From positions 115,122,218-115,186,217 of the forward strand of contig OW804098.1 in assembly GCA_942159475.1 (NCBI GenBank): a stretch of 64,000 nt of DNA, given 5' to 3'. Positions within the stretch are counted from its first letter, which is position 1, and every line of letters begins with the position of its first letter. The notes beneath the pieces are model-generated. The model was not told where the DNA came from, searched no databases, and worked only from the letters and a program-made list of their open reading frames with translations. This DNA comes from Sthenelais limicola (taxonomy: Eukaryota > Annelida > Polychaeta > Phyllodocida > Sigalionidae). Shown here piece by piece: positions 1-53,079 of the stretch. The translations under genes and the position numbers were made by a program.

Positions 1-833
1 GAGGGAAAGAATAATGTGCCCATCTGTGATGTGTTTCAGGAAAATGAGTCATAAGTTGCAAAATTGATATTTTTCAAAGTGTTTTTTTCACAAGATCATA
101 TTATTGGAATGTTCTGATTTTTGGAGAGTTCTTCACCCATAGCTATATTAATTAATGTATCAAATTTCAGGACAATCTATTCAATTCAATTCAATTCAAT
201 TCAATTCAGAAATTCTTTATTGGATGGTTTTGTTCACAATAGGTCGGTCAAATCTGGCACAAGGACATGCCAGTTCTTCCAATGACTGCCGACGTCTCTC
301 TTGAATTTTTCGTTACAACAATAACATGAAAGTCCCTTTATAGGGCTTCGTAACAACTTAATAATAACAACATGTCAGCTTTGAATGAGATGAATATTTA
401 CATCTGAAAACAGTAGATGAGGGTCCTAGCTTATAACAGTCTAAATTATTTGTATGCATCGTTATACATTAATTTTTAAAGGATACATTGTAACATACAG
501 TTCCTCAGTTATGTCCAGCATGGAGCACTAATACAAGTTATACTGTCTGCGGACTGAGAGGCGAGAGCGACATAGATAATTACAGTTAGAGTTGGCAGCG
601 GTGACAAATAGGAACACACATTTTCTAGGCAGGAGCAGTAACATTCTACAGTGAAGAAATAAAGTATCACAGTGGATTGGTAAGTTGATTTGAGAGAGAA
701 GGCATACTAATCGGTGTATGCTAATTCAGACATTAGTGATGATTATAAGTATAAACAGTCATATTTCAGTGTGAGCAGAAATATGTCACACTCTAATGGT
801 TGATAATAATATAATGTTATAACAGTACTAAGA

Positions 834-3734
834 TCAGAAAGGCGCAAGAAGCTGTTGCGTATATTTCCTAAATGAGGAACTGTCCTCTATTTTATGCGCT
901 GCTGGTTTCAGCTCATTCCATCGTATTCTAGATTTATATGTTATAGAGTCAGTGACCTTCGTCAACTTGGTGGTCAAGACTGTCATGTTTCTTTTACCAT
1001 TTGCGTGACTTCTAGTTGGTAGGTCTCTTATATCAATATTATTTTTATTTTGGGACAAGTAAAAAGCAATATCTAAAATATGTTTATCCCTTCGCGTTTG
1101 TAGGGGCCAAATATTTAGGGACTCATGCTCGCGATCCACATTGTCGTATTTGGATTTATTAAAAATTATCCTTAAAGCTAAATTTTGTTGGGACTGTAGT
1201 TTTTGTAGTATGGCTTTCGGGGCAGAATCATAAATGAAATCACAATAATCAATATTTGGAAGGATAGCTAACTTATATATATCATGTTTGGCTTTGTGAG
1301 TCAAGGAGTCCTTGGCTTTATATAATAATCTAACTTTAGAGGTAATTAATTTCAGAGTGTTACTGACATGCGATTTGAAGGTAAGTAGATCATCGAGCAT
1401 GAAGCCCAAGTATTTGTACTCATGAACTAAGTCTAATACAGCAGTGCCAAGGGTAAGATCAATGGCAGAGTTCAATGTTTTCGACCTAGATGCATAACTT
1501 AAAGAGAACGACATGGCCTTGCACTTAGAAGCGTTAAGGGATAGTTTGTTTTGGGCGCACCATAAGTATATATTGTTAAGATCGTTTTGAAGATTGTGAT
1601 GAAGAGTATCAATTTTAGAATTATGATAATAAATGACAGTGTCGTCTGCGTAATGTTGAATTTTGGCATGACGGACTACTGAATGTAAATCGTTAATATA
1701 AATTGTAAATAATATTGGGCCCAAAATGGTACCTTGTGGGACACCATAGGTAACTATCCCTTCTTCTGATTTTTGGCCATTTACACTAACAAACTGTCTC
1801 CTATTCCTGAGGTAATTTGTGAACCAAAGTAACTCCATGCCTGCTATTCCATAAGTTTCTAATTTATCTAAAAGAATTTTGTGATGGACCGTATCGAACG
1901 CTTTGCTAAAATCAAGGAAAACTGTCTTGTTAAAAAGCTTATCGTTCAAATTTGTATATAAGTTATCGAGGAAATCTACTTGAGCTTGTTGAATAGAATG
2001 ATTTTTACGGAAGCCATATTGGTTGTTATTAAATAGATTATTGGACTCAAAGTGATCGGTAAGCTGTTGCTGTACAGCTGTCTCAAGAATTTTAGCAGGC
2101 ATGGAGATACAAGATATGGGCCTGTAATTCGAGGCGTTCAGTTTACTGCCTGCCTTATATAACGGTGTTACCCGCGCCAACTTGAAAGAACTGGGTATCT
2201 TACCCAGGAGTAAAGAAATATTAATAACATGCGTCATTTGATCAGTTAAAGCTAGTAGACATGATTTCATAATAGTGGCCGGGATGAAGTTAATTCCGGA
2301 ATTCTTCGATACATCAATTTTCGAGATGATTTTCCCCACTTCCCTAGAAGACAACTCGCAGAACTTAAAATTGGGTACATCATATTCACTGGGGGTTTTT
2401 AAGTCAGAGTCAGCGGTAGTTGCGCAAGGGGGGATCTTCTTGGCAAGATTGGGGCCGACATTAAGGAAATAATTATTGAATTCAGTTGGTATTTCAGGCG
2501 GGTCTATCGCCTGGCCGTCCTTTTCTAGATATATAGTGCTACTCTTTTTGAGTTTCTCCGGGTTAATCAAAGGTCTTAAAAATTCCCAGAACTTCCGGGG
2601 GTTTTTATCATAAAATTCCAGATTAGCCTTAATAAACTGTGCTTTCGCTGTCTTACATTTAGAATTGGCCAGCCGCCTTAGGACTTTAGCCTGGTGTAAT
2701 AGTTCTGAGTCACATTTTAATTTAGCAAGTCTGAATAACTTGTCCCTTTCATTCATTATTAGTACTAGATCGGCGGCCATCCATTTTGGTTTGGTCCGAA
2801 CATTCCTAAACTTTTTTAAGGGGCACATTTTATCCAGATAAAATTGAATAGCATTTAGTATAATATCCCAGCACTTTTCCGGATCCGAGTTACTATAGAA
2901 CGGTTTCCAATCAAGATTCTTAAGAATTTCACTAAGGATCTTTTGGTCTAGGTGTTTTGTACACCTAGCCCAAAAGGTGTCAATATTATAAGCAGTGCGA
3001 GCCTTTTTCCTAACCAGGAAAATGGGGAAATGATCAGACAAATTTATGTCAATTGCACCAGCTGTGCTAACAAGGGAGGAGTTCGTGTAGAAGTGATCGA
3101 TTGTGGTTTGAGATCTGAGAGTCAATCTAGTGGGTATCTTTATGTGTTGAACTAGGGAGAAATCGTTTATCAAATTCTTAATTTCTGAAGAGAGATTAGT
3201 GGTAGAGGTGTCTATTACGTTAAAATCTAGGTTAAAATCACCCATCATATAAAGTTCGTGCGATTGATTTAATTTTGAAAGAATTTCGCGTAATTTTAGT
3301 ATTAATGTTTTCGTGCAACCACTAGGTGGTCTATACACATTCAGTATAGTACAACATTTGTTCATACCTTTTTTGACTATGGCAACTTGTACTTCTAGGT
3401 CTTTACTTGATATATTTAAATCCCTATAGGTCTCAGTGTCAACCACTAGTTCGTTCTTAAAATATATACACAACCCTCCTCCTCTTTTTCTCGTAGCTCT
3501 GTCTAAACGATATAATGTGTAGTTTTGCAGTTGTATTGCGTTATCATGAGTGCTGGCATTGAGCCAGGTCTCGTTGAAACCCAAAACATCTACATCCCCA
3601 CCTGATGTCAAGAACTCTATTTGTGTAAAGTGCTTGGAAAGGCTACGAATATTCCAAGACACTAATTTTAAGCCTTTCAAATTTTTCAAATCAGCGAAGG
3701 AGCACAGTAATGTACTACCAGTATCCGTCGCCAT
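834..3734 (-). CDS. Endonuclease-reverse transcriptase (ORF2-type protein) of the non-LTR element
   Basis: 966 aa from an ATG at 3734. Residues about 20-245 form an apurinic-type endonuclease: the Asn of SWNIRS, the Glu of FNETWL, MGDFNLD, the Asp-His of IDHFY and the terminal SDHFPI block are all visible. Residues about 515-790 are a reverse transcriptase, with NYRPISC, FLDFSKAFDTVHH, GVPQGTILGP and the catalytic YADD at about residues 695-698. The C-terminal 170 residues have the usual non-LTR thumb and tail. There is no RNase H domain. The protein should nick target DNA and prime reverse transcription from it. There are no internal stops, so it could be active. It lies 1.8 kb downstream of the SGNH ORF, an unusually long gap for this element type. 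Confidence 0.93.
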   Translation of the reverse strand: MATDTGSTLLCSFADLKNLKGLKLVSWNIRSLSKHFTQIEFLTSGGDVDVLGFNETWLNASTHDNAIQLQNYTLYRLDRATRKRGGGLCIYFKNELVVDTETYRDLNISSKDLEVQVAIVKKGMNKCCTILNVYRPPSGCTKTLILKLREILSKLNQSHELYMMGDFNLDFNVIDTSTTNLSSEIKNLINDFSLVQHIKIPTRLTLRSQTTIDHFYTNSSLVSTAGAIDINLSDHFPIFLVRKKARTAYNIDTFWARCTKHLDQKILSEILKNLDWKPFYSNSDPEKCWDIILNAIQFYLDKMCPLKKFRNVRTKPKWMAADLVLIMNERDKLFRLAKLKCDSELLHQAKVLRRLANSKCKTAKAQFIKANLEFYDKNPRKFWEFLRPLINPEKLKKSSTIYLEKDGQAIDPPEIPTEFNNYFLNVGPNLAKKIPPCATTADSDLKTPSEYDVPNFKFCELSSREVGKIISKIDVSKNSGINFIPATIMKSCLLALTDQMTHVINISLLLGKIPSSFKLARVTPLYKAGSKLNASNYRPISCISMPAKILETAVQQQLTDHFESNNLFNNNQYGFRKNHSIQQAQVDFLDNLYTNLNDKLFNKTVFLDFSKAFDTVHHKILLDKLETYGIAGMELLWFTNYLRNRRQFVSVNGQKSEEGIVTYGVPQGTILGPILFTIYINDLHSVVRHAKIQHYADDTVIYYHNSKIDTLHHNLQNDLNNIYLWCAQNKLSLNASKCKAMSFSLSYASRSKTLNSAIDLTLGTAVLDLVHEYKYLGFMLDDLLTFKSHVSNTLKLITSKVRLLYKAKDSLTHKAKHDIYKLAILPNIDYCDFIYDSAPKAILQKLQSQQNLALRIIFNKSKYDNVDREHESLNIWPLQTRRDKHILDIAFYLSQNKNNIDIRDLPTRSHANGKRNMTVLTTKLTKVTDSITYKSRIRWNELKPAAHKIEDSSSFRKYTQQLLAPF

Positions 3735-5526
3735 GACAAGTAAACGTCAGTAACAGTAAGAAGAATACGTTTGGAATTTTAACTAAGCATAAATTCATCT
3801 AAATTCATCCAACCCGATGAAGACTATGTACATTTTGTACGTGGATTTTTACACAGGACTTATGCATTCTCTTGTGGTTATTAAACCACTACTATATAAC
3901 ATTAAGTGACATTAAGTGACAACAAGCGACAAAGAACTCACAATACCATCTGAGATACATTTTGATATGGCTTAACTCACGTTTGCTTATTAAAATTGTA
4001 TCGGTACTAGCAATATAGCTCACAAGATGGGGATCCAATTAGAGATCCATAAGAGTAATGAACAGCAATACGCATAAGTGGCAAGCTAAAGTTAGTCGAA
4101 GTACAATTTTATCTTACAATAACAGCGATGAATGAGAGGTAGGTAAATGAAATGAGAATAAGAATAATACATAGTCGATAAGCGAATGACGTCAATCAAC
4201 TGAATAATTAAATAATTAATTAAGTATAGTCAATCAACTGAATAATTAAATAATTAATTAAGTATACATTGTGATGAAATTACTCAGATTAACAACTGAT
4301 TAAGTGGACAGGAGCTAGTTCGGTGTGAATGGCATATCAAAACGCCGTAACATTATTATTACTCAGCGATCATTATATCAAAAACGCCGTAACATTATTA
4401 CTGGACTAATGTTAATGTTAACTATAAAATGATGAATTAATGAGTGAGTTGGTGCATCGAACCTTCTCTGCGAGAATAATAAACATAACTGGGCTGATTA
4501 TAGTCAAGTGAATAAGTTCAGTTATGACAGTAACTATATTATTTGCGCTTTTGGGCTGAAATGATGAGGCAGGATAAGGAGATAGGAGGTACTAAATCAA
4601 GTTACCTCAATAATCTAACCGATCGCGGGCTCATCGCTCCAGCCGGTTGGCTTACAGCATTGGGTTTTCCATAATCATGAGTATTCTTCACTATTTTTAA
4701 TAATACTATTTTAATGACACCCCCCAATAACATTAACACCTCTATATAGATTCTCAGCATGAAGAGTATACATTTTACACATTGAAGCATTGGGGATGGG
4801 AGTACCTCTATGAAATACCTTGGGAGACACAGCTTTGCCTGAATATTGTATCAGATCAGATTAGATTGACAATAGGTAATACGTTACGACCACATTTTGA
4901 GATATTATAGCATTGAAATAGTGAGGTCCTGAGCAGTATACTATCTTACAAGTATCCAGGGTTATACAACTATATTAATAAAAGTGATTGGCCGGATTCG
5001 TTTATGAGATCGTGAACTAGTGTTACAATAGACATTATTCAGAAGTTTCATCAAATGTAGTCATAGTAGTCATTTCATGAATAATGATAATATTGGGTAT
5101 AATACCTGTTAAACCAATTAGTTGATTCTCAATAAGTCTACGGAGTATGAGAGCGACGGTGTATGACAAGACAGGGGAGAGAAACTAAATCAAGTTATCT
5201 CAATATCAAGTTCATCAACCGACTAGTCATGGCCTTGATTATTATTGTTGTAGTAGCTTGTGATTTTAAAGTTACAGTTCAGGTAGATCTATGTCGTGTG
5301 GTAAAACATTTGTAGAGAGTTTCAATGCAAGTCTGCGTGTGCAGAAATGTCAGTGATTTCGAGCTGATTTTACTGCAGAGGTGCTTCTGAAGCATATCGG
5401 AATATACACAATAGTCTACAAGAGTAAGAGCGAATACCGATTGATAATACTAATTTAACGACGGTGAATTGACATGCCCGATAGGAATTAGTGATGTCCG
5501 ATTTGGTCCAGTACTGAAATAGATTT
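3735..5526. other. Long non-coding spacer between the SGNH ORF and the endonuclease-RT ORF
   Basis: No ORF above about 60 codons is convincing here. It is AT-rich and holds two short internal duplications: a 35-bp tandem pair at about 4195-4264, and a repeated AAAACGCCGTAACATTATTA motif at about 4338 and 4380. It sits inside the element, between the target duplications. It may carry a downstream promoter or translation signal for the RT ORF, or be a later insertion; neither is shown. Confidence 0.6.
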
Positions 5527-6219
5527 TCAATTATGGGGTCCTCTGTAATCAAGGCGCGCCGAGAATGTCTTGCATATAGCTATGGCCCACTTTTCCTGGA
5601 GGTATGGAGATAAGTGGCAGCCGTCTAATGCCATATTGAAGTAGTTGTGGGTGTAGGTGGAATTATTTGGGTGATACCTATGGATGACCCTTTGCGTCCA
5701 AGGTGTACCTACCCCATTGGAGATATTAAAATCTTTAATCATTTGTATAGCGGTTTCTACTTGTTGGTTAAGCTTCTCTTGAAGAGGGTGGTCGGGAACT
5801 TCCTCTATGGAGATGTCTCCTTGCTGGAGTTCTTTCCTCCTATTATAACGGTTAATGTGCATCCCTGTTATAGGGGAGAAGCTAACATAGGTGCGTTGAG
5901 AAAGGTGATTAGTGATGTAATCATATGAGTTACGCAGCTCTTGGGATAAGTCTTCTTTCATTAATTCAATATCAGAGTTACGAAGTGTGACTAATTTGGT
6001 GTACTTATCTTTGGTAGTCAGGTTACATAGCCCAGACATAACAAAAACATGACTCGGCGCGAGTCGATGAAGATCATCAGTAGCCTGTAGGACTGATTGG
6101 TATATGGTGGCACCTGATGATGAGGAGAGTTCAAAGGAAACATTCGTGCTAAGCTGACTCCTTATAGCTGGGCCGAGTGTCCTTACTCGGGAGTCGCCTA
6201 CTATCAAAATAGAGTCCAT
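5527..6219 (-). CDS. SGNH/GDSL-hydrolase-like protein of the non-LTR element
   Basis: 230 aa from the first in-frame ATG at 6219; the frame is open to about 6318 but without an earlier ATG. SGNH blocks can be seen: VGDSRVRTLG near the N terminus (nucleophile Ser in GDS), VMSGLCNLT in the middle (block III-like) and DGCHLSPY near the C terminus (Asp-x-x-His dyad). Esterase domains of this fold are known in CR1/L2-type ORF1 proteins; here it is a separate ORF. It is in the same frame as ORF1 but separated from it by two stops (6328-6330 and 6319-6321), so it probably needs reinitiation. The substrate is unknown. It is unrelated to the lipase genes later in the window beyond the shared fold. Confidence 0.75.
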   Translation of the reverse strand: MDSILIVGDSRVRTLGPAIRSQLSTNVSFELSSSSGATIYQSVLQATDDLHRLAPSHVFVMSGLCNLTTKDKYTKLVTLRNSDIELMKEDLSQELRNSYDYITNHLSQRTYVSFSPITGMHINRYNRRKELQQGDISIEEVPDHPLQEKLNQQVETAIQMIKDFNISNGVGTPWTQRVIHRYHPNNSTYTHNYFNMALDGCHLSPYLQEKWAIAICKTFSARLDYRGPHN

Positions 6220-6327
6220 GTTGTTGTCAGTAATATGAGCGATAATATGGAGGCTAATAGTTCCAGGTCGAGATATATAGAAGTAAGTCACAGTGTCGCA
6301 TTTGGCACTCAAGGTGAGTTATGTAAG

Positions 6328-8406
6328 CTAAGCCCGCTTCTGTAGATCTTGTTTTAGCTTTCCCAAAATTTTTCCACAAAGATTAGAACCTTCAAAATCT
6401 TTGGAAAGCAGCTTTGATCTGAGTCCGTTTTGGTCTAGGATCCGAGGAAGATTGCACCCGGTGGCCCACTTCCTGTCCGTGGTCATTTCATAGAATCTCG
6501 TCTGCGTGAGATTTACTAACTTTTTCTGTATATATTTATTCTGCTCGAATTTTTGCTTGATTATTTCCTCTAAGACACTTTTTTCCTTCTTTTTCCATTC
6601 CGGGGTTGGAGTTAGTTCCATCCTGGCTTTCCGCTTGACTATATAAGGATTCGGTGTATGTCGGAACTCATCGGCAAGTTCCGGCCGACCTAGTTCTGTA
6701 GCTTTTGCAGACTGAAATGCATGCTCTGCGGATTTGTACAGTTTTCCTTTATAATCAAATTCTGACGGATGAAAATTTGAGAGGAACGAGTGTTCGCTCT
6801 TAAATCCAATTCCACGCCCGTTATCAACATCCACTGACCTGGCATCCTCCGGTCTACAGCCATCTGGGAGCGTGTGTAAGTCCCGGCTAGTGAAGGATTT
6901 GTTGTCCGTCAGAATGTGGCTGCCACGATGCTCTGACGTACGATTATTGAGCCGTAACAGTTGTTGACAATCACGTAGAATATGGTATTCATAAGCAGGG
7001 ACAATCAAGCCTTGTTTGTTTATCTCGAGCCGAGCAAAACGAGTATCTGAGTGACGGACATCGGATATGTTCTCTGCTAACTTAGTGAGAATCACTCCAG
7101 ATTTGGACTTGACGAAGACTGGCCTAATAATTTTGTCGTCTAGTAGGCCGATTCTATATACTTCAACTATGTCATCAACATCAAAATCTTGATCCAGTTT
7201 TCTAAAGACAACATGGATTGTATTGACTATGTCGTCCTCCCCGAGCTCAGTGATGTTCTCCAGTACTACGAACTTGCGATGATCGTGGGGAGGAGGGACA
7301 CGAGGAGCACGGGGAACACGAGGTCGTCGAGGAGGCATATGTGTTTGCGGCCATTGAGGCGGCATGGGCGGCGTGGGCCTCCAACCTGGAGGCGGTCTGT
7401 TCTGATACCCCGGGGGAGGATGAGTAAATGGAGGAAATTGCAAAACTTGTTTATTCGGAGCTTGGCTGACGTGAGTACTACTGTTAGAAATCTTATTAAG
7501 GCAAGATTCTGTGTGTGCAGCGAGCGTATCAATGGATGTTGTTATTCTTTCAACTCCTGATTGCCCCTCGGTGCGAAGTGCTTTCAGATCTGCGTGTAGG
7601 CTGTCCGATGACAGTGCGGTTTTTACATCCTTTACATTTCGACCCAGGCCACCCAATTCGGCCTCAAGACTGGAATATTTGGCATTTAAATCAGTCCCTA
7701 GTTTCTCTATTTCTGATCTCAAATCTGTGATGGAAGATTTAACCTCCTTAATAGATGATTCAATGCGGCCTTCTGTAATTTTAATGCTCGATGTGACAGC
7801 CGCCTCTAGTATAGGTGTCAATTTGAGAGTTAACGAGTTAAGGAGGCTGTCAGTGGGGTCCGCTAATGAAGTGTTAGGGCTTGACCTGCTTGTATTTGTA
7901 TTTAGTTGAGATCTTGTCTCTTCAATGTTAAACAGTATGTCCTTCATTTTATCTAGGTTTTGAGACCTTTGGAGCAATAAATTGCGGACACTATTTGTGC
8001 TTGAGGCATCCTTCGGGGAGGATACAACTCTCGATGATAATAAAGTGCTACTGTCACGACTCTCCTTCGATGGGATCGATTCTGTGGTCGAGACGAAGAG
8101 ATCGATATCACAAGGTAGTGTGGCATTTTCGGCATTTATATTTGGGGAGCTTTTATCGAACTTAATTTCATTCTCACTGGAATCTTGTTGTGAGAGCTGC
8201 AAATTTCGATTTGATAACTGCTGAGAGAGCACCGCTTGATGCACCGGTGATTGTACCAGCGATGGGATACTTCCACTGGAGCCTGAGATCGGTGTAGAGG
8301 TCAACAAGCTTACATGAGAATCATTTTCTAATTTCAGTGATTCTGAGAGTGTTAGATCAATATCAGGTATTTTAGTCCCCTGTGATAGTTGGTTTTGGTC
8401 CGCCAT
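6328..8406 (-). CDS. ORF1 protein: coiled coil, proline-rich linker, RRM-like region and C-terminal NADAR domain
   Basis: 692 aa, ATG at 8406. Residues 1-140 are Ser/Thr/Asn-rich and probably disordered. About 175-300 is a coiled-coil-like stretch rich in Lys, Glu and Leu heptads. About 320-375 is proline-rich with a basic Arg-Pro run. About 380-500 resembles the RRM-like nucleic-acid-binding part of LINE ORF1 proteins (FVVLENITE, VYRIG, RPVFVKSKSG). About 532-690 matches the NADAR family: HSFLSNFHP, YKSAEHAFQSAK, PEWKKKEK, KFEQN, FYEMTTDRKWATGCNLP. NADAR proteins act on ADP-ribose-type substrates, and some are reported to remove ADP-ribose from guanine in DNA. ORF1 normally coats element RNA; the NADAR domain is the odd part. 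Its catalytic role here is inferred. Confidence 0.85.
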   Translation of the reverse strand: MADQNQLSQGTKIPDIDLTLSESLKLENDSHVSLLTSTPISGSSGSIPSLVQSPVHQAVLSQQLSNRNLQLSQQDSSENEIKFDKSSPNINAENATLPCDIDLFVSTTESIPSKESRDSSTLLSSRVVSSPKDASSTNSVRNLLLQRSQNLDKMKDILFNIEETRSQLNTNTSRSSPNTSLADPTDSLLNSLTLKLTPILEAAVTSSIKITEGRIESSIKEVKSSITDLRSEIEKLGTDLNAKYSSLEAELGGLGRNVKDVKTALSSDSLHADLKALRTEGQSGVERITTSIDTLAAHTESCLNKISNSSTHVSQAPNKQVLQFPPFTHPPPGYQNRPPPGWRPTPPMPPQWPQTHMPPRRPRVPRAPRVPPPHDHRKFVVLENITELGEDDIVNTIHVVFRKLDQDFDVDDIVEVYRIGLLDDKIIRPVFVKSKSGVILTKLAENISDVRHSDTRFARLEINKQGLIVPAYEYHILRDCQQLLRLNNRTSEHRGSHILTDNKSFTSRDLHTLPDGCRPEDARSVDVDNGRGIGFKSEHSFLSNFHPSEFDYKGKLYKSAEHAFQSAKATELGRPELADEFRHTPNPYIVKRKARMELTPTPEWKKKEKSVLEEIIKQKFEQNKYIQKKLVNLTQTRFYEMTTDRKWATGCNLPRILDQNGLRSKLLSKDFEGSNLCGKILGKLKQDLQKRA

Positions 8407-9134
8407 TGTATTTTACATAAATAGTCATTCATAAAGGCACATTTGTAAAGTTGATAAAGTTCAGAGGTGGGCGATGATAGAGGCCTCGAGCTTACCAAGG
8501 GCGACGTCCCTTGCGGCTGTCAGTTTAGGACAAGTAGAAACCTTTGCTCTCTAATATCTGGCCGTCCTCTAGCGATCACGTCCAATAGTCTTCATCTTCA
8601 AAGTCTAGATGTGTTTACGAATAGAAATTACCATTTGTGTGGTTATATGCCTAGTTTTCCAAACTGGATTATATAATTTTAGCCCAGAGCGAGCATCACG
8701 ACGTTGTTGCGACGTATTATGTATTGAGCATGTCTATATCTATGTTATATATCCATGCGTTTTAAAGGTCCTCATATGGACTACATTTAATTACTTTACT
8801 GTTTATTGACCCCCAGAAATATTGGAAACTTTTTTTTCAAAAACGAAAATATCAAACTTAAAATCTAGAAATACTTATTAGATTATTAGACTGTTTACTA
8901 TCATTGGAATCGGCTAAATCTCATCTTTTCAAATATAATGGTATCTCAAAATCTATTTTTTGCGACTTATGACTCATTTTCCTGAAACACATCACATCTC
9001 TGCATTGATATGTTGTCTCCGGGATCATTCAGGAGGCGACACCTTCTTGTATCTTTGGTTCAAACCCCTTTCACAAGATGGCCTCGTAGTATGGGTTACA
9101 GCTCACACGACGGAACTAGCGTTCTCTTTCCATT

Positions 9135-9936
9135 TGTGATGTGTTTCAGGGAAATGAGCCACAAAAATGGATACTTTTCAAAGTCATTCATTCACAAGAT
9201 CTTTTATAGAAATGTTCACATTTGTGTTGTGTTTCAGGAAAATGAGTCATAAGTTGCAAAATTGATATTTTTCAAAGCGTTTTTTTCACAAGATCACATT
9301 ATTGGAATGTTCTGATTCTTGGAGAGTGTCACTTATAATTATGTCAATCGATGTATCAAATTTCAGGACAATCTATGTAATATATCCTTTCATTTTAAAG
9401 GTGCTCATATGGACTGCATTTAGTTTCTTTACTGTTTATTGATCCCCAGAAATATTGGAAATCTTTTTTTCAAAATGAAAATATCAAACTTAAAATCTAA
9501 AAATACTTATTAGATTATTAGACTGTTTACTATCATTGGAATCGGCTTGATCTCATCTTTTCAAATATAATGATATCTCAAAATCTATTTTTTGCGACTT
9601 ATGACTCATTTTCCTGAAACACATCACATTTTTTAAAGTATGTACCATTAAACCTTAAACCATTATGAATGCATTTATCAAATGTCAGTACTGTGTACTA
9701 AATATGTCCTTGCATTTCTAAGGTCATCCTATTGAGTATAATTAGCTACTAGTGCTGGTCTATTCAGAAATATTGCTTTTCTTTTTCAAAAATATAAATA
9801 TAAAACTTAAAATCTCTCGAAGTACTTGTTAGTTTTCCTAATGTTTACTATCATTAGAATCGGCTTGATCTAATCTTTTGAAATATATAATGATATATCT
9901 CAAATCCACTTTTGACTCATTTTCATAAAACACATT
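9135..9936. repeat. MITE A copy split by another A copy (9135-9222 and 9629-9936)
   Basis: The left portion starts TGTGATGTGTTTCAGG and the right portion ends with degraded ATGACTCATTTTC-type sequence. The younger copy at 9223-9628 lies between them. This is the more diverged outer copy. Confidence 0.75.
9223..9628. repeat. Intact MITE A copy nested in an older A copy
   Basis: 406 bp with both TIRs (TGTGTTGTGTTTCAGG and TTTTCCTGAAACACATCACA). It closely matches the copy that received the retrotransposon and provides the empty-site sequence GACAATCTATGTAATATATC. Confidence 0.88.
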
Positions 9937-10188
9937 AGTATTTAAAGATTTGTATTCAGCAATAGAACATTATGTAACAGTTATACTATTCTCAGGACGT
10001 GCTGATTTTACTTACAAAAGTGACAAAATATTACAATAATTATATTAATCAGATGACAAAGACAATTTACATACCTTTGATTTTGATACAGATACTAAAG
10101 TAACAGTAAAATTTATCAGAGGCTAGCACTTAGGCAATTTAAACGAAAAAAAGAATAATAAAAAAACGTTAAAATCCAATCCCAGTAT
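9937..10188. other. Unique AT-rich DNA, no feature seen
   Basis: About 250 bp between MITE clusters, upstream of lipase exon 4. I searched it for a GDS-block exon (exon 3 of the plus-strand lipase) and found none. Confidence 0.5.
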
Positions 10189-13800: not shown

Positions 13801-16800
13801 CGCGCACCCCCCCCCCCTGCGCGAAAATAAATCCTGCGGGAAAGGTATAATTATTGCATATATTATTGCATAAACAATGTGTGAAACTTCCTTGCTGCGC
13901 GAATTTAAATCCCCGCGAAAAGGTGGCAAAGCACTTAGTGCGCGAAAATTTATCTGGGTGAAAATAAATACGTTTACAATTAGTTACATATGAAAAGGAA
14001 GATGATGGTAGTAGCTAACAGTTATTATTATTGACATTATTATCATTGTTATACATTGATATAAAGAGGGTACACTGTACACAACATGTTGTGTACAGTA
14101 ACAGGTATATTGATAAAAGAGGGTACACTGTTGTGTACAGTAACAGATGCTGATTTAAGTAAGGTAACATGCAAGAACACAGATTTGTAGGCAAGAGCAG
14201 TAACACTCTACTGGTCATCTGAATCTATGTACCAAATTTCACGACATTTAATCAAATATATCCTTCCGTTTTGAAGGCCTTCGTATGGAGTGTATTTAGT
14301 TACTTTATTGGGTTACCCACCCAGAAAAATTGCAAACATTATTTTCAAAAATAAAATTATCAAACTTAAAATATAGACATATCTATTAGATGTCCTAGTG
14401 TTTATTATCATTTGAATCGGCTTGATGTCCTCTTTTCAAATATCATGGTATCTCAAAATCCATATTTTATGACTTATGACTCATTTTTATGAAACTGATC
14501 ACAAGTGTACTTACAAACAATTGTCATATATTGGTGAAATATCCAGAAAAGGCACAATTCACATGCAGAAACCCTCCCTAATAACCCAGATTTAATACAG
14601 AAATGAGACTCAAAAGGCAGTTCAACATATTCAAACACATCCTTTGAATCAACACAATACCGAATATATTTAGATGTACCCAGTATACCCAGCTATCAAT
14701 TGTACATTTTCTGACGATCTGACCCATATCCCCATATATATGTGAGGCGCTCCATCAAAAAGAGTCCCATGTCGGCAACTTTCATTTTGAGATATAGGGC
14801 TCCAAAGGTGGTATAGGACTTTTTCGGTCGAAAACTTTTTTTCCCGTAATATTAATCTTTATTATGTTTTTTTTGAGACTGGAAAATATTTTGTACCAAA
14901 AACAATTATTTACGCTTCATAACGGCCGGTAAACATTTTCCTAACATGGTTGGATGGGTTTAAACAAAGGAGCCGAAGGCTATTTTTCACTAAATTCACT
15001 CGTACGCCATGGACATTTGATCGTAGGGTACCCCAGCACATTTGGTATCCTCGGAAAGCCGCGAATCTCCTCTAGCCAATGGGATTCTTCCCTTTTGAAT
15101 CGCCGCGTAAGTAAACCAATCACAGAGCTCTCTCCAAGTGCATTCGGCGTAAACAATGGTTGCTAGGGTCGTCAAGGGAGCCCACGAGGGGTTGATACAG
15201 CCCTGTGATTGGTCCAGCCGCTTTAAAAGATCAACTTCCGGCTGACGCCATCTTCTAGCGTGGTCTTGGATTTGAATCGAAGCGACCAGTTATTCCTCGA
15301 TTCCAGACGATACAAGACGTGTTTTACTCTCCAACAAAGTTTTAAATGGACCAAGGTTTATTATTTAAACATGGAAGCTGAGGCCACCGTCGCAGACGCT
15401 CTTAATGGCATCGCTCGAGCCAATTTGGGAGGTGTTGTCGACAACGCCGAATGGCGTAACCTCATCGAAGAGTATTTTGTGTTCAACGAGGAAACAGAGA
15501 CGGTGGAATCTGACTCAGATGGAGAACCAGACGTCCCTGATCAGCCTGAAACTCCGGAGACGAACGAAGAAGAAGTTGAGGAAGCATCAGAACCTATTCT
15601 TATTATTGATCACATGCAGGCAGTTGTGGACAAGGAACGGGAAAAGTGCTCCACGTTTCGGTAAGTGTTGGTGCTCTGCAGCCATCTTTTCTATCGTGTG
15701 TGTTGACATGCTGGGGGACGCGATCTGAAAACTATGCTATGTACATCCCTGGAAATCATTCCAAATCTATAATCCAATGCTGTTATATGTGCTAGATACC
15801 TTGTGGGTATATTTAGAGGTTCTAAAATTTAATTGGTGTATGTTTTAAGTCGCATGGTGTTGTTCGTGCGTGGGGAGTTTAAGGCCCTCGAGATCTGGGG
15901 AGTAGCTATTTACTTGGGACGTCTGAGATTCCTTACTCGTCTCGTATGGAATGTAGGGTTAAAAATACATTGTTTGTTTGTGTCATTATGGGCAAATTAA
16001 AATCTAGGATTTTGTCCATTTCAGATGTAACTGCCGATTGTTTAACGGCGGGCCATGCATAGACCAGTTCACTGTGGAACAGCGCATCTCTCATCGGTCG
16101 GAACATGACCAAATCCATCGAGGTAATTTCAAAATAATGTTTTTCTCTATTGCCTCATTGCCTATACATGCCTGTATAATACTCATTCAGTATTTTAATC
16201 AGTATTTTAAGCTGTAGCTTGTTAAATAATGAGGACACGTGCTACCCAATTACATAGGATAACTAATTACGTAGGATAACTGTAGGGACTCAGACTAAGA
16301 TTGGTGTCGGTGATATTAGTCAGTCACAAATTCATTTTTACATTATTGTTATACTGTCGTTTCAGATGAGCTCGACATGGCACTCTTTGGCGTTTTCAAT
16401 ACTGTTACTGACAACAGTGATCGATGCAGTCCAACCAAGAAGGGGCGCCAGTGGAAGGGAGAGAGAAAACACCCAAAGAGCCACTACAGGATGCATAACA
16501 AGCCTATTTGCAAAGCTACCTTTAAATTCCTTTACAAGTGAGTGTTATCATGAATCTTGTGGTGCCCATTAATACTGAACATTAGATAGCTATTCATAAT
16601 AACATGATTATTTGCTAAGAATCAATATTTTGGTATTGTCATTTTAAGATCCTGCATTATGTTCAATTTCTTCCTTTGTCAACGATTAAATTATTATTAA
16701 TTATTTTTTCTATTTCTTTTCTCTCCCTTCACTTCTAGGATTAGCCAAAACTTGCTGACAGTTTTGCTAAAATCCTTCGCTGAGGATGGTCTGGTCACTC

Positions 16801-19800
16801 GTTCACGACAGGGTGGTGGTCACCGTGCTGTGAGGTCTTTGCCAATAGATGACCTGAAGAACACTATCAACTTCATCACATCTTATGCCGAAACACATGC
16901 TCTTGTCTTGCCAGGCAGAGTATCTTCTCACCACAGAGACGACATCTTAATTCTCCCCTGCCGTTCTACAAAAGCTGAAGTTCATCGTCTTTACACACAA
17001 GCCATGCAAGAGACTGGCAATAGGGCTGTTGCCTACTCCACTTTTGGTCATTTATGGCGCAAGTATCTTCCTAAAATAGTCACAAGTCGTCCCATGACCC
17101 TCTGCTGGGAGTGCCAGCGTAATAACAGAGACATTTTCTGTAGTAGTAATTTACCTGATGTTGTGAAAGCTGCCAAGTTAAAGAAACAGCAGAAACATTT
17201 AGACAGTGTAACCGCCGAAAGAACTCTTTATCAGAAATTTTGTGCTGATGCAAAAGAAGCGTACAGAGACAATGGTGAACCCCCCCTTGGCAAACATGCC
17301 CCTTGCTCATGTGACATTCGAGTACATCTCAGTTTTGACTTTGCACAACAAGTGCATTTACCTTCTTACCCGATGCAACCAGGTCCCCTTTATTTTCTCA
17401 CCCCGAGGAAGGTAGGCCTGTTCGGTATTTGCATGGAAGGAATGCCTAGACAAGTTAACTACCTTATAGATGAGAGCCATTGCACCAGTAAGGGGTCAAA
17501 TGCAGTTATTTCTTATCTGAATCATTACTTTGAAAACTATGGTCTGGGGGAGAAAGATTTAGATCTTAACTGTGACAATTGTAGTGGCCAGAACAAGAAC
17601 CGGTATGTTTTGGCCTATTTGATGTGGCGTGTCCTTACTGGAAGGCACAGGTCTATTACACTTAACTTTTTGATTACTGGGCACACTAAGTTTGCCCCCG
17701 ACTGGTGCTTTGGTCTCTTGAAAAAACAATTTCGTCGGGACAACGTTTCTTCTCTTCAGCAATTAAAAGCCAGTGTGCAGCGCAGTACGCCAGGGGGGGT
17801 CAACCAGGCCCAACTTGTAGGTGATGAAAGGGGTACTGTTTTTGTTCCATTGTACGACTGGCAGGCATTCCTGTCACCTTTCTCCAAATCTTTTCCAGGT
17901 ATCAAAGGGTATCATCATTTTGAATTTTCTAGTGACAAACCTGGTGTTATTTCTTTCAGGCCATTTGTAGGCCCTGAAGATAGTGGTACTTTTAAAATGC
18001 TTACTGTTGATGTGGGTGATGTCCCTCAGGACAACCCACCCATTGTACCTTCTCCTGGACTGTCTGCATACAGACAGTGGTATCTTTTTAATTCTATTCG
18101 TGATTTTTGTACCGAAGAAACCAAAGACATTATGTGCCCCAAACCAACTGTACCTGAAGAAGGGCCAGGGAGGGGGGGGGATGGCTACATTGTACAGGCT
18201 CCTGCAGTCGCCCCAGTAAGAGGTAGAGGGAGGGGAAGTGGAAGGGCTAGAGGAAGAGGGAGGGGTAGAGGAAGGGGAAGGGGAAGGGGAAGGGACAGGG
18301 AATCTTCTTCTGATGAATCATTAGAATTAGGTGGTGATGAATCTTCTGAGGAGGAGGAGGAGGAGGAACCTCAAGAGGAACCTCAAGCTAGGGGTAGGGG
18401 TAGGGGTAGGGGTAGGGGTAGGGGTAGAGGAACAGTAAGGGGAAGGGGCAGGGTAAGGGAATCTTCAGAATCTTCTTCGGATGGGGAGGTTGCACCTCCT
18501 CCAGCAAAGAGAGGTAGGGGGAGGGGGAGGGGAAATGTTCAGCAACGCCGGCCAGGGAGGGGTAGGGGTAGGGGTAGGGGTAGGGGTAGGGGCTGACTGC
18601 TATTTTATTGATTTTATTACTGATTTTATTACTGATTTTATTACTGGTGAATACTGTTGTACATTTTGTTTTGTTAGAATGAATAGGTGTGTTATCATGT
18701 ATATATTGCAAGCACTGCACCGAAGAATTTTGTACAGAATTATTATACTCGTGTTAACAGGGTAATAAAATAAAAAATATTAAATGAAATGCACTGATTT
18801 TTTTATATATTGTGGCCCTACTAGTCTATAATACCTGCCCCAAATCTGAGAAAAATCCAATCATATGAACTGGTCATTTTGCATGACGACGCGTCCGACA
18901 TAAATCCCACAAAAGTCTCCTAGAAATGTATTTTGCCCAAATTTCACCCAATTTTCATCGCGCGATAAAATGATAAGTTACTAAGTAAATGAACTGAATT
19001 TGGTATATGTTATGGCTATGGCAGTTAGTAAAGTGTGTCCCAAATTTCATAGAAATCGCTTGATAACAAATGCCCGTAACCAAGGATGGCGCGCCGAAGG
19101 TCACTCGCCGAACTTAAACAGGCTGTATCTCAGTTTCCGGCTCCTCCAGTAACCGCGTCCCTTAAATACTCACCGCAACCATAGAATTATACCCAATAGG
19201 CCTAAAATTAAGCTCTATACATCATTGGAAAGCTCTTTCCTGCTGCTTACCCATCCAATAGCTAACTCCAAAATCGATTTGGCCGACATGGGACTCATTT
19301 TGATGGAGCACGTCTCATATAGGAAGTTTGGATATGGGTAAGATTTTCAGAAAATGTACAATTCACCTTCACCAATCCTCTCAAATAACCCACATTTAAG
19401 ACAAAAATGAGCTTCAAAAAGCTATTTAACATAACAGAACTGATACTTTAAATCAATGCGATACCAAATATACACAGATATTACCCGGTATTCTGCATTT
19501 TTCAGCCTAATTTCAAAGAATTTCCTAAATGTGTAGAGCTGCCAATTGTACATTTTCTGAAAATCTGACCCATATTATATATGAACATTTAACAGACTCC
19601 ATGTGGATTTTATTATTCGTGTAGCTATTATTATTGTCAAAAAGGAGGAAAAATCTCTATAGAAAAAAATACTGCAAATTTTGATACTAATTTAGATGTG
19701 ATAACATATTATATCTAGTATTGTCTTTTATGTTAAAATGTTCAAACTCGAAGTTAATCATATTACTTGCTTCAATACTGAAAAACCTCTTGAATGGTTG

Positions 19801-48454: not shown

Positions 48455-49525
48455 TTACTCAGTCTTAGCACATCCAGAAGAGCAGTCGAGTCTGGTGGTG
48501 ACGAAATTCTCGATAGTCAGTTTCCTGTCATCAGGAGTAGCTAAGTACAAAAACACAGCATGAGAACGCCAGTCACCCAAACATTTGATATCAGCCAGGG
48601 GGACACCAATAGAATGCAGATACATAGTGCCACCCCGACGAAGGGAGTGAAGGCCCGCTTCAGCAGGGTCGAGGCCTACGGACTTGACCAGTCGTTTCAG
48701 GAAGGTATGAACCTCACCGTATAAGAGCGGAGCCCAGCTCTTACCGGAAGGCTTCATGAACAGGGGGTCCTCTGGCTTGCCAGGCACAAGAGACATCATC
48801 CAACGCAACATGCTGACCACATCCAACGCACCCACTAGCGTACTCATGAGGGGAATATTCAGAGTCCGTTGCCTGGCCTGAATAGTTTTAGTGGAGCGCA
48901 CAGTAACATACACCAAGTTGCCCTTGAAGGAAATGTCACGCCTGAGGAGGATATGTCCAGCAAAGGTCGAATCACCCACAAGATTCGACTTGCGAAGAAG
49001 GGAGCGGAATGATAGGGCAATCACAGTCCAGCAGATCCTGTCATACACGGAAGAATCAATAAAACGATGCATAGCCACAAGGTTGTCAACCCCTAATGGC
49101 CGCTTTTGAGTCACTTGGTCGCCCAGCGTATTCCTGATGCCCGCCATGCACATCTTAACCATGAAGCTCTCACGGAATGTAGGCTCAAAACCGTACACTC
49201 TATGCAGTCCCATAATGGCAGATAAGTAGTTGTTAACCGTGGAATATTTGCTGGATAAGCTGATCATGACGAGGAAGCAAACCACAGTTTTCTCTGAAGC
49301 AGGGAGAGGGGTCAACTGGTGGCTGGCACAAAATGACAGGAAGCGCTTCCACTGCGAGCTCCGGGTGGCTAAAGTATTGGTCGAGTAGGCCGAAGCAATA
49401 ATCTTGGAAACTTCCACATCCAGGGCTGCTAACGGGGCATGATCTGGAACATATAGAGAACACATCCTCTGGTAAGGCCTTGGTATCATAAATGCGGGAG
49501 AGCGCATCAGCCAGGTAGTTATCAT
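48455..49525 (-). CDS. Tyrosine recombinase of the Ngaro-like element
   Basis: First in-frame ATG is at 49525; another at 49465 (MCSLYVPDH) is also possible. The frame overlaps the end of the RT ORF by about 290 nt in a different phase, usual for this group. The N-terminal SAM-like region holds TRSSQWKRFLSFC. Catalytic residues visible are Arg in LLRKSNL, His-x-x-Arg in GLHSLRRGG, and Tyr in HAVFLYLATP. Recombinases of this kind insert circular cDNA. The frame has no stop, so it may be functional. Confidence 0.87.
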   Translation of the reverse strand: MITTWLMRSPAFMIPRPYQRMCSLYVPDHAPLAALDVEVSKIIASAYSTNTLATRSSQWKRFLSFCASHQLTPLPASEKTVVCFLVMISLSSKYSTVNNYLSAIMGLHRVYGFEPTFRESFMVKMCMAGIRNTLGDQVTQKRPLGVDNLVAMHRFIDSSVYDRICWTVIALSFRSLLRKSNLVGDSTFAGHILLRRDISFKGNLVYVTVRSTKTIQARQRTLNIPLMSTLVGALDVVSMLRWMMSLVPGKPEDPLFMKPSGKSWAPLLYGEVHTFLKRLVKSVGLDPAEAGLHSLRRGGTMYLHSIGVPLADIKCLGDWRSHAVFLYLATPDDRKLTIENFVTTRLDCSSGCAKTE

Positions 49526-51746
49526 GAGTGTTAATATACTGAACAGATAGGTGGCATTTAAATACGGAACAGATCCAGAAAATATGCCGCAGTAAGGCCA
49601 TACAGTTAGAGTTGATACTATGGCCCTTGCCCACCATATGCAGAACTTGCAGGTTGTCACTATGGCAAATAATATGGGAGCCTGGGAAGCGCGGGGCGAG
49701 GCGAAGTAGGCCGAGCCAGACAGGGATCAACTCAAGGAAGTTGATGTTCAGACCTTGGGAAATGGATGAAGTGTTAATGTCGCACCAATGGCTATGGCCC
49801 GCAACGCAAGGACTCATATCTAAATCACACACATGCGGGGAATAATAACCAGCAAGCCAGTCATCGGCCGCATACAGTCCAAAGCCCTGCATTGACGAGT
49901 CTGTTACAAACCACGGGCCCTGCCCGAAGTTGAAGTCAATTATGGGGGAGACACCATTGAAGTCCGCAGCCACAAGGCGCCACCACTGCAGATCCTTAGT
50001 GAACTCATCATTCAATCTAACTCTGGGGTTAGAGTCTACTGGAAGGCCGCGTAACAGGCTAACTATACGGCGGGAAAAGGTCTTGGCACCACGAATTACT
50101 TTAGCACAGTGGGCCAGCACACCACACAAACGCTGCAGTTGGCGCTTAGTTGCTCTGGAACGATGCTCGAAGAAGTAAAGCTCGGCGTGCAGCTTCAGGA
50201 CCTTATCATCTGGGAGACAAAGGAGCATATTAACCGAGTCCAACTCTATACCAATATATGTAGTGCGGCAAGATGGGGCAATCACCTTCTTCCATGAAAT
50301 GTGAAATCCTAGTCCCAACAGCAGGCGGAAGAGAACTGTCTGGTAGAAGACACATTCATCACGAGTCTCAGCTAATATGATGAAATCATCGATATAATTG
50401 AAGATACGGGAGCACCCCCTGCGCACCATGCACCTGGATATGAAGTTGGATAATTGTGTGAAGATAAAAGGCGCGCAGCGGAGCCCGAAGCAGAGACGTG
50501 TATCAACCAGAAACTTGCCTCCGTCCTTGAAGGGCCACCACAAGCCCTGGAATGTCCATTGTGAGGGATTAATAGCTACAGTCCTGTAGGCCGAAGAGAT
50601 ATCTATTGTACACATGTAACAATTACGGGTCATAACACTAGCCACCTCTTGGATTGTATGGTATTTAAAGGACTTGCAAGTACTAGACATGTAGCAATTA
50701 ATAGAGGAGCCCAAGGGGCGCTTACAGTCAGTAATGGGCCTATAAGCTCCGCCCCGCTTGGGAACTGCACCAATAGCATGTACACAGCGAGGGGGGGTAT
50801 CAACAACTTTGAATTTCCCTGCATCTAATTCAAGTTGAATTAAGTCATTCACAAAGGCAAAGGCATCAGGCTGAAGAACTGAGGCGTAGTTCTCACAATT
50901 ATATGACGGTATCATAGAAGATTGGTCGACGATATCAAAGCCATCAAAGACGCCTTTGAGAAGATAACTACGAAGAAAAGGGTCGGTTTCATGTCGTAGT
51001 TCATCAGACCAAGCAGTAGGGTTCAACTGTGACCTGAACCCGCCGATGTAGTGGGGAGAAGCATAGTGGTGACTCAGATCAATGAAGGGTGACTGGCGCA
51101 ATTCATCAACAATAGTACACATGGTATAATCAATGCTAGCAAAGGACAGATCATCAACGTTTGCAAACAAGACATCAGCATCATATGGTACATTGTCAAC
51201 ATCAGAACATGACAAACTATCACAAGGGTAACAGCAACCCAGTACATCATCAATATGGTCAACATCAACACAGTCGACATCACAAACATCATCGCAACTA
51301 CTACAACAAGTACATGTGACAGCGGGGAGAGTAGAGCAAGCAAAGGAATCAACGGTAGTACAACCAGGGTGATGGACATGATTACATACATCAGGGGAAG
51401 ATAATGCGCGAACAGGATTATCAAGGCAAGTATCAGTACAAATAACTTTACGACCCACGGGAAGTACATTCTCATAGCGTGATGTAAACAAAGCACAAGA
51501 GTCCGAGTCACGAGAGGCGTCGATAAGTCCCTGGGGAGAAGATACGGCATTGCAATCGGTAGATGACCAGCGTAATAGATGCTCAGCTCCAGGAACATGA
51601 TTGTTGTTGACATCAGAGAGGTGGCGGACTTGAAAAGGACGAGAGAATGAAGATTTTGCAATGTCCGAAGTGGGCAAAACACACGGGTCTGAGGAATGGC
51701 CGCCATGACAGATCCCGCTCTCGCATACTCTCGTGGGCGAATGACG
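49233..51746 (-). CDS. Reverse transcriptase-RNase H (pol) of the Ngaro-like element
   Basis: About 837 codons, open from directly after the gag TGA. There is no ATG near its start, and it is in the same frame as gag. The first 230 residues include an odd Cys/Asp-rich stretch (CCSSCDDVCDVDCVDVDHID and on). The RT core has GAVPKRGGAYRPITDC, TIDISSAYRTVAI, CFGLRCAPFIF and the catalytic YIDD (about residue 428 counting from 51677). RNase H follows with FVTDSSMQGFGLY, NFLELIPVW, ICHSDNLQVL and HDNYLADALSR. No methyltransferase follows. It would copy element RNA into DNA. Confidence 0.88.
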   Translation of the reverse strand, partial: RHSPTRVCESGICHGGHSSDPCVLPTSDIAKSSFSRPFQVRHLSDVNNNHVPGAEHLLRWSSTDCNAVSSPQGLIDASRDSDSCALFTSRYENVLPVGRKVICTDTCLDNPVRALSSPDVCNHVHHPGCTTVDSFACSTLPAVTCTCCSSCDDVCDVDCVDVDHIDDVLGCCYPCDSLSCSDVDNVPYDADVLFANVDDLSFASIDYTMCTIVDELRQSPFIDLSHHYASPHYIGGFRSQLNPTAWSDELRHETDPFLRSYLLKGVFDGFDIVDQSSMIPSYNCENYASVLQPDAFAFVNDLIQLELDAGKFKVVDTPPRCVHAIGAVPKRGGAYRPITDCKRPLGSSINCYMSSTCKSFKYHTIQEVASVMTRNCYMCTIDISSAYRTVAINPSQWTFQGLWWPFKDGGKFLVDTRLCFGLRCAPFIFTQLSNFISRCMVRRGCSRIFNYIDDFIILAETRDECVFYQTVLFRLLLGLGFHISWKKVIAPSCRTTYIGIELDSVNMLLCLPDDKVLKLHAELYFFEHRSRATKRQLQRLCGVLAHCAKVIRGAKTFSRRIVSLLRGLPVDSNPRVRLNDEFTKDLQWWRLVAADFNGVSPIIDFNFGQGPWFVTDSSMQGFGLYAADDWLAGYYSPHVCDLDMSPCVAGHSHWCDINTSSISQGLNINFLELIPVWLGLLRLAPRFPGSHIICHSDNLQVLHMVGKGHSINSNCMALLRHIFWICSVFKCHLSVQYINTHDNYLADALSRIYDTKALPEDVFSICSRSCPVSSPGCGSFQDYCFGLLDQYFSHPELAVEALPVILCQPPVDPSPCFRENCGLLPRHDQLIQQIFHG

Positions 51747-52706
51747 TCACTGCCGGGAATCCCGGGGTTTCCTCTGGGGACACCCCACGGCACGATGATC
51801 CAGTTTGCACAACCGGCAATGATGCTTGCGAGTACAACTAGAGGCAGTATTAGCACAATTGCGATAGTTCCAATCGTAACACACATCGTCTGGGAAGTCC
51901 ACAGGAATCCTAGACCTCCCTGATCTGCATGTGCCAGCCCCAGTAGCAGATGGAGTAGACGAGGCATGCTGCTGCGCACTGGGTTGTTGTTGTTTACCCA
52001 GCTTACGCAACGACGGACTGAAGCCCACAGCCACACACAATGGGTCTCCGGCGCTGAAGGCGTCCAATCTACCGTTGGAGACTTTGTCTACCATTCTATG
52101 ATCATACAAGGCATATGCTTTGTCTTGGAAAGTGTCATTAATGCCCTCCTCTGTCAAGAAGCTTAGGTGATCAAGGTAACTGGCAATATCACCGTCCGAC
52201 TCCAACAAGTGCACAGCCACTCTGACCATCCCATGGACTAACTCACGATATGAAAGCTTGTTGTGATCCAAATTCTTAACAGGGGTCTTATACAGTAGAT
52301 GCTGGACATAATACTCCGGGCGGAGAGGCATACGTTTGTCCTTTATTGCAACGGCAGGATCCAATGAGATGGCCACATCGTGGAGCGCGTTGGTCAAGCT
52401 AGGGTCCAACACTCCGGACAAGCCACTACCCATAACGTTGTCAAAATGGCCGCCGGTCGCACCTTCACCACCGCGACCTGTATTACCGGCAGGCACCAAC
52501 TTCAGAACTTTCTTGAATTGGTCTGACATCACGTCCATCTTGTCCAACATATCGGAAATCTCAGCACTCTGACCAGCATTAAGACGACGGAGTTCGGTAA
52601 TATCCAAGGCTGCATGAACTTCCTTCTTTACATTTTGCAACAGCTTCGGTGCGGTATTTACACACAGACACCCCCGGTCTAGGGTGGGAATATCCGCACG
52701 CTCCAC
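51747..52706 (-). CDS. Gag-like protein of the Ngaro-like element, ending in a TGA in frame with pol
   Basis: The frame opens after a TAG near 52718 and has no ATG before the conserved-looking ERADIPTLDRGCLC; a GTG at 52706 is the only early start-like codon. An ATG at 52716 lies in another frame (MGKCGACGYSHPRPG) and is followed at once by GGTAAGT, a splice-donor consensus, so a spliced or frameshifted start is possible. The middle has VLKLVPAGNTGRGGEG. The C terminus has a Cys/His cluster, CYDWNYRNC then CTRKHHCRLCKLDHRAVGC, a zinc-binding nucleic-acid module as in DIRS-group gags. The single TGA (51747-51749, context CAG TGA CGT) separates it from pol. Confidence 0.8.
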   Translation of the reverse strand: MERADIPTLDRGCLCVNTAPKLLQNVKKEVHAALDITELRRLNAGQSAEISDMLDKMDVMSDQFKKVLKLVPAGNTGRGGEGATGGHFDNVMGSGLSGVLDPSLTNALHDVAISLDPAVAIKDKRMPLRPEYYVQHLLYKTPVKNLDHNKLSYRELVHGMVRVAVHLLESDGDIASYLDHLSFLTEEGINDTFQDKAYALYDHRMVDKVSNGRLDAFSAGDPLCVAVGFSPSLRKLGKQQQPSAQQHASSTPSATGAGTCRSGRSRIPVDFPDDVCYDWNYRNCANTASSCTRKHHCRLCKLDHRAVGCPQRKPRDSRQ

Positions 52707-53079
52707 ACTTACCCATGACTAAACCAAACGAATACACACAGAAAAATTTTTCACACGTGAAGGAGTAAGTGAAGGTGTGGTGAGGTTGGTAGCCGAGGAG
52801 TAAGTGACTGTCACCGGTGCGGGAACCTGGCAGGTAGAGAAGACCGACGCTAGGTGGCGACAGTCCGACCAACCTCATTTATATAAATATATAATGTGAA
52901 CAACATATATTGAAACGAATATTTATCAATACTGTAATATCAATATCCATGTGTTATACATGAATCTATGACACCAGTCACCATTTTTCCCATCATGCAT
53001 TTGGTTCTTATAGACCATTTACACAAGCGATGATATTGGTGAAAACATACTTGGAATTTTCGATAGAAAATGCTGCTAT

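Follow-up and report, generated by a model that had tools for sequence, protein, structure and literature searches.

A NADAR domain in ORF1 of CR1/L2-like LINEs of the polychaete Sthenelais limicola

The element and its insertion site

The stretch analysed, referred to below as the window, comprises 64,000 nucleotides of contig OW804098.1 of the polychaete Sthenelais limicola (positions 115,122,218 to 115,186,217, assembly GCA_942159475.1) and contains a long interspersed nuclear element (LINE) whose first open reading frame (ORF1) carries a C-terminal NADAR domain. The domain had been proposed from the sequence alone (the original prediction) and was confirmed by a Pfam profile search, which gave a match of 68.6 bits to PF08719 against a curated cut-off of 35.1; the predicted structure of the domain together with a structural match supported the NADAR fold. 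The element looks intact and appears to be a CR1/L2-like LINE of the Jockey superfamily (Table 1).

When the two flanks were joined across the element, they aligned with a paralogous unit within positions 9480–9290 without a gap at the junction (score 171), and the score fell to 137–164 when the 3' flank was shifted by 4, 8 or 12 in either direction; one 2-nucleotide gap was found further downstream of the junction. Since the flanks join up gaplessly at the junction and ATAGAT stands on both sides, the 8557 bp moved as one unit, and the NADAR domain lies inside a single insertion bounded by target-site duplications (TSDs). Two adjacent insertions are ruled out by the paralogous empty site, at a single point of which the two ends of the element coincide, with 6 bp duplicated. 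Bacterial contamination is likewise ruled out by the position of the window in a 130-Mb contig of a 1.13-Gb assembly and by the multicopy relatives described below. The insertion target was a host repeat, units of which are found at 8738–9940 and 1–185 as copies 632 bp apart, along with further and inverted copies.

Table 1. Features of the NADAR-bearing LINE in the window
Feature	Position	Strand	Remarks
Full-length CR1/L2-like LINE (apparent)	181..8737	-	8557 bp, inserted in tandem-repeat unit
TSD, 5' copy	8738..8743	-	ATAGAT, 6 bp
5' untranslated region	8407..8737	-	from 5' junction to ORF1 ATG
ORF1	6328..8406	-	692 aa; low-complexity N terminus, coiled-coil-like stretch, Pro-rich linker, RRM/CTD-like region, C-terminal NADAR
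NADAR domain	6343..6798	-	PF08719 match, frame residues 539-690
Second ORF	5527..6219	-	230 aa from ATG; SGNH-hydrolase motifs (GDS, GLCN, DGCH)
Spacer	3735..5526	-	1.8 kb; perfect 2 x 38-bp tandem repeat (4191-4266)
ORF2	834..3734	-	966 aa; AP-type endonuclease and reverse transcriptase (GVPQGTILGPILF, YADD)
3' microsatellite tail	179..208	-	6 x 5 bp, GAATT-type on element strand
TSD, 3' copy	175..180	-	ATAGAT, 6 bp

ORF2 matched the Pfam families of reverse transcriptase (RT; PF00078, 1e-38) and AP endonuclease (PF03372, 1.2e-10). Its RT motif GVPQGTILGPILF, which we take to be of Jockey type, may be compared with GTRQGCPLSP of human L1, the group in which Tx1 elements are placed. The pattern GVPQGS.LGP.LF is present in the window, in four of the first six related loci fetched and in locus L052, and was not matched by pattern search in L051, L053 and L054. 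The 6-bp TSD fits the range of CR1/L2 elements and not that of the L1 clade, for which peaks at 3–5 bp and 13–15 bp, respectively, are described in PMC4245944, together with TSDs of 1–8 bp for most ZfL2-1 inserts.

Upstream of the NADAR domain, ORF1 contains a coiled-coil-like stretch at about residues 205–250, as judged from a simple heptad count, and at about residues 376–530 a region that seems by eye to resemble the RNA recognition motif (RRM) and C-terminal domain (CTD) of type II (L1-ORF1p-like) proteins. The resemblance is unproven; no significant Pfam or PDB match was obtained for this region, its block of the predicted model had a predicted local distance difference test score of 64 or less, and the model of the last 319 residues of ORF1 was poor outside the NADAR domain.

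The second ORF contains all of the Ser, Gly, Asn and His blocks of SGNH hydrolases (residue letters from PMC5408684), with GDS at position 8, GLCN at 63 and DGCH at 199. These motifs were read directly from the sequence, and the match to the Pfam family PF19040 was below the cut-off (E = 0.055). The second ORF lies in the frame of ORF1, from which it is separated by two in-frame stops, TAG and then TAA, 6 nucleotides apart, and its open frame extends over 5527–6318. An SGNH-like ORF occupies the same position in five of ten other NADAR LINEs (L047, L048, L049, L051 and L054); in L047–L049 the Ser and the DxxH motif are kept, Thr or Ser replaces the Gly of GDS, and Asp replaces the Asn. No structured RNA was detected at the junction of ORF1 and the SGNH-like ORF (z +1.18), and no ORF longer than 82 amino acids was found inside the spacer. 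The GC content is 35% in the spacer, 44% in ORF1 and the second ORF, and 37% in ORF2, a contrast that hints at a mosaic element. The word standard, applied to the element in the original prediction, does not suit a LINE with an SGNH-motif ORF and a long spacer.

Conservation of the domain in related LINEs

The eight ADP-ribose contacts described for the NADAR of P. nicotianae (K50, R79, W89, R93, W133, D130, E43 and E125; PMC11543638) were mapped by alignment onto the window domain, which keeps all of them except R93, replaced by Glu. The ADP-ribose pocket is therefore kept in seven of eight contact residues. The catalytic position is occupied by a glutamate, E114, in the last beta strand (112–114) of the model, as in the YbiA subfamily, which is defined by a catalytic Glu in that strand (PMC11125620). 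The sole NCBIfam match of the domain, TIGR02464 (riboflavin-intermediate N-glycosidase), was below its cut-off. The Pfam search detected no ADP-ribosyltransferase domain in ORF1, in the second ORF or in ORF2.

A NADAR search of the genome to which the window belongs (1.13 Gb in 161 contigs) gave 5561 loose candidates. The best 150 were scored, a set that the weaker-scoring copy of the window did not enter. All 150 were above the Pfam cut-off, 148 had no internal stop (two had one), and about 130 (132 by eye count) lay in frames of at least 380 amino acids. Among the 30 best loci, taken with 1.5 kb on each side, 19 were followed on the same strand by ORF2 sequence and nine by an SGNH-like ORF, 28 in all, and two, L014 and L023, by neither; some of these loci had themselves supplied ORFs to the downstream queries, and the matches at L015 and L037 could be separate insertions. 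Eleven loci were examined with 4–8 kb (six and then five, L044–L047 repeating four of the 30 best), some of their ORFs being split or cut by the ends of the stretches, and endonuclease and/or RT sequence was found downstream in all ten ORF1-type loci with 7–8 kb. The NADAR domain, C-terminal in the window, is internal in eight examined loci and is followed there by a tail of 152–346 amino acids rich in low-complexity sequence. The part preceding it resembles, by eye, the coiled coil, RRM and CTD of L1-type ORF1 proteins, with no Pfam match. A large and diverse set of LINEs in this genome thus keeps NADAR in ORF1. None of the three outcomes named beforehand as contrary to the original prediction, namely no NADAR match, missing pocket residues or a fusion unique to this copy, was observed.

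Residue conservation was followed in 32 loci (the 30 best plus L048 and L049), among which 25 NADAR sequences are distinct. In all 32 the residues equivalent to E43, W89, E125 and W133 are invariant and the catalytic position is Glu; the R93 position is Lys or Arg in 12. Asn replaces D130 in six related copies (L025, L038 and L040–L043), possibly a change of specificity.

The ratio of non-synonymous to synonymous substitution rates (dN/dS) in NADAR was 0.05–0.09, with a median of 0.07, in all 17 informative pairs (0.1 < dS < 1.2) among a total of 496; the 17 pairs are non-independent and belong to two family groups, and apart from the very close pairs considered below the remainder were out of the dS range or saturated. 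Between L044 and L045, dN/dS was 0.052 for upstream ORF1, 0.049 for NADAR, 0.296 for the tail, 0.073 for the endonuclease part and 0.063 for the RT part, and between L024 and L030 it was 0.042 upstream, 0.074 for NADAR and 0.335 for the tail; with dS above 1, near saturation, these values serve as a ranking. Purifying selection on NADAR is thus shown for two family groups, and it is about as strict as that on RT in L044 and L045, the pair for which an RT value is available. Furthermore, the similarities of NADAR and RT covary over seven elements (Mantel r 0.95, 4 of 5040 permutations), a correlation due in large part to the L044–L045–L046 group and the L048–L049 pair.

Outside this genome, no fused relative in the fused length range was found at E <= 0.001 among 847 public protein candidates, nor any in a single-domain protein search with 25 candidates, the coverage of animals being uncertain in both. 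An alignment-based protein search yielded 1407 NADARs, with 120 of 141–245 amino acids among the matches listed; its length limits admit short proteins only, and it is uninformative on fused forms. Scans of viral contigs with NADAR, ORF1 and ORF2 confirmed no relative, and a scan of genome contigs gave one bacterial NADAR.

A stand-alone NADAR ORF of 162 amino acids was found at L050 (G000:C1:94853300-94857300, 1949–2434, reverse strand), and contig C1 has three matches of this kind in all, in frames of 162 amino acids. The L050 ORF adjoins an ORF that resembles, by eye, the type-B DNA polymerase of Polinton/Maverick-like elements and gave no Pfam match. Elsewhere in the window, overlapping frames at 48455–52718 (reverse strand) that encode an RT (2.3e-11) and a protein resembling tyrosine recombinases (1.4e-4, below the cut-off) presumably represent a DIRS/Ngaro-like element, and an ORF of 631 amino acids at 16701–18596 (forward strand), which matches DUF7869 (1.1e-20) and whose C terminus is RG-rich, is perhaps another mobile-element protein. 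Searches of the window for tRNAs and for Rfam matches at the gathering score found none.

A possible role in removing ADP-ribose adducts

The original prediction is supported in part, namely in the fusion, the kept pocket and the existence of relatives with the same fusion; an enzymatic activity of the domain, its substrate and a role against host defence are inferred. We would give about even odds, a probability near 0.5, to the reading that the NADAR of the ORF1 protein is carried in the LINE ribonucleoprotein and hydrolyses N-glycosidic ADP-ribosyl adducts that block reverse transcription or integration. The ORF1 protein would most likely coat the LINE RNA through its coiled-coil/RRM-like part, so that NADAR would be carried within the particle. 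There it may hydrolyse N-glycosidic ADP-ribosyl adducts, with guanine as the known substrate, on the LINE RNA, the nascent cDNA or the target DNA; if left in place, such adducts would block reverse transcription or target-primed integration. In accordance with the proposed chemistry, all four E. coli-linked NADAR types tested, including YbiA, are reported to remove guanine ADP-ribose from DNA in vitro (PMC11125620). The adducts, presumably made by a host ADP-ribosyltransferase, may represent a host defence, as in the original prediction, or else damage or a normal RNA-processing state. Guanine-ADP-ribosylating activity in clams, to which the original prediction had referred, is in print for six edible species (PMC11209040), and a host source of guanine adducts is conceivable here if the host resembles such clams.

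Several observations weigh against this proposal. The equivalent of R79, a phosphate contact, is lost in all 32 other loci, K50 is Lys in 23, Arg in eight and Ile in one, and D130 is Asp in 26 and Asn in the six copies named above, and hence substrate handling may be different; in a bacterial NADAR, Lys-to-Arg at the K50 position is described as keeping in-vitro hydrolysis and losing antitoxin function (PMC11543638). The window copy keeps 22 of the 34 columns conserved in at least 90% of 80 other NADARs and has Ala at two glycines invariant in those 80. YbiA and phage NADAR, active in vitro, fail to protect cells from DarT1 (PMC11125620), so that the target cannot be deduced from activity. The measurements of selection cover two family groups, neither of them that of the window, and the 28 pairs with dS up to 0.1 carry little information, some having more non-synonymous than synonymous changes, as would be expected of fresh copies. 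Finally, the choice of loci among the 150 best NADAR scores gives the residue counts an upward bias; the contrast between domain and tail within a pair should be left untouched by this.

Alternatively, NADAR may act in RNA maturation or ribonucleoprotein assembly, by processing NAD- or ADP-ribose-derived RNA ends or by recruiting host RNA-processing machinery. This is argued mainly by SNA-3 of nematodes (PMC9303266), and the Ectocarpus study also suggests processing of RNA intermediates by NADARs of transposable elements (PMC12477816); the reported chemistry of NADARs is, however, N-glycosidic hydrolysis, and we consider the explanation unlikely. It is quite unlikely that the domain is a reader that binds ADP-ribose, tethers the ribonucleoprotein to ADP-ribosylated chromatin, e.g. 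at DNA breaks, and steers target choice. The variation at R79, K50 and D130 between families would agree with it, as would the PHD domains, elsewhere readers of histone marks, among the ORF1 add-ons of the superfamily (PMC4120745), but both Glu residues of the distal ribose site and both Trp residues are invariant, and a pure reader could presumably dispense with the catalytic Glu. Clearance of small ADP-ribose-derived signals or metabolites around the ribonucleoprotein, such as cyclic ADP-ribose-type molecules or riboflavin-pathway intermediates, has been proposed for phage NADARs (PMC9503650) and would suit the sub-threshold TIGR02464 match; it is very unlikely here, as fusion to ORF1 suggests a substrate near nucleic acid and diffusible ones would need no fusion. 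That the domain is a captured passenger fragment without a role is hardly credible in view of its multicopy occurrence in several families and of a dN/dS equal to that of RT where RT was measured, which rules it out for the two family groups tested, even if the family of the window lies outside them and the public proteins searched held no fused relative.

It is a tentative thought, and on the whole a rather doubtful one, that an ADP-ribose eraser is obligatory in several animal LINE lineages because their host ADP-ribosylates bases of retroelement RNA, cDNA or integration sites. If so, the strict conservation of NADAR would be a sign of a defence, or a repair barrier, as yet undescribed in animals and acting via nucleic-acid ADP-ribosylation. 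The physiological role of NADAR across eukaryotes, animals included, is called unclear in PMC11125620; selfish elements, whose spread depends on efficiency, hold the domain under RT-like constraint and make the question of its substrate a direct one. Were that substrate a base adduct, nucleic-acid ADP-ribosylation would be a candidate for a barrier that animal hosts raise against retroelements.

Comparison with known systems

With respect to fold and distal-ribose-site residues, the domain resembles YbiA-type enzymes (E. coli YbiA, 2b3w; P. nicotianae NADAR, 8bau), which in contrast stand alone without retroelement fusion and share 25% identity with it. The superfamily and the likely reaction are those of the DarT1-associated NADAR antitoxins (DarTG1); unlike these (BC4488) NADARs with catalytic Asp and a linked darT, the domain has Glu, and the ORFs of the element include no partner ADP-ribosyltransferase.

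SGNH-type sequence upstream of the endonuclease and RT is shared with ZfL2-1, which has its SGNH esterase in ORF1 (PMC3905857), whereas here it forms a separate ORF after the NADAR-bearing ORF1. The same source describes SGNH esterases in chordate, cnidarian and sponge elements of the types CR1, RTEX and Penelope. In a survey of 448 Jockey-superfamily elements, esterase ORF1s are described from vertebrate subgroups only, and its Table 1 contains no NADAR (PMC4120745).

The closest precedent is a study of the Pacific oyster (Crassostrea gigas), in which several Tx1 LINEs appear to hold a YbiA-family NADAR in ORF1, and of Ectocarpus, in which one Gypsy lineage has NADAR in Pol (PMC12477816); among the other literature matches listed, judged from titles and the beginnings of abstracts, no further NADAR of a transposable element was found. 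Both the oyster LINEs and those described here are animal LINEs with a YbiA-family NADAR in ORF1. The oyster LINEs are labelled Tx1; those described here have a Jockey-type RT motif, a short TSD (in the window copy) and an SGNH-like ORF in half of the ten loci. The two were compared by description, and that found for the oyster gives no selection test, copy number or residues. The fusion of NADAR to a LINE as such is thus already known; four points appear to be new, namely the Jockey-type RT of the LINEs concerned, the abundance of the fusion, the accompanying SGNH-like ORF and the signs of selection.
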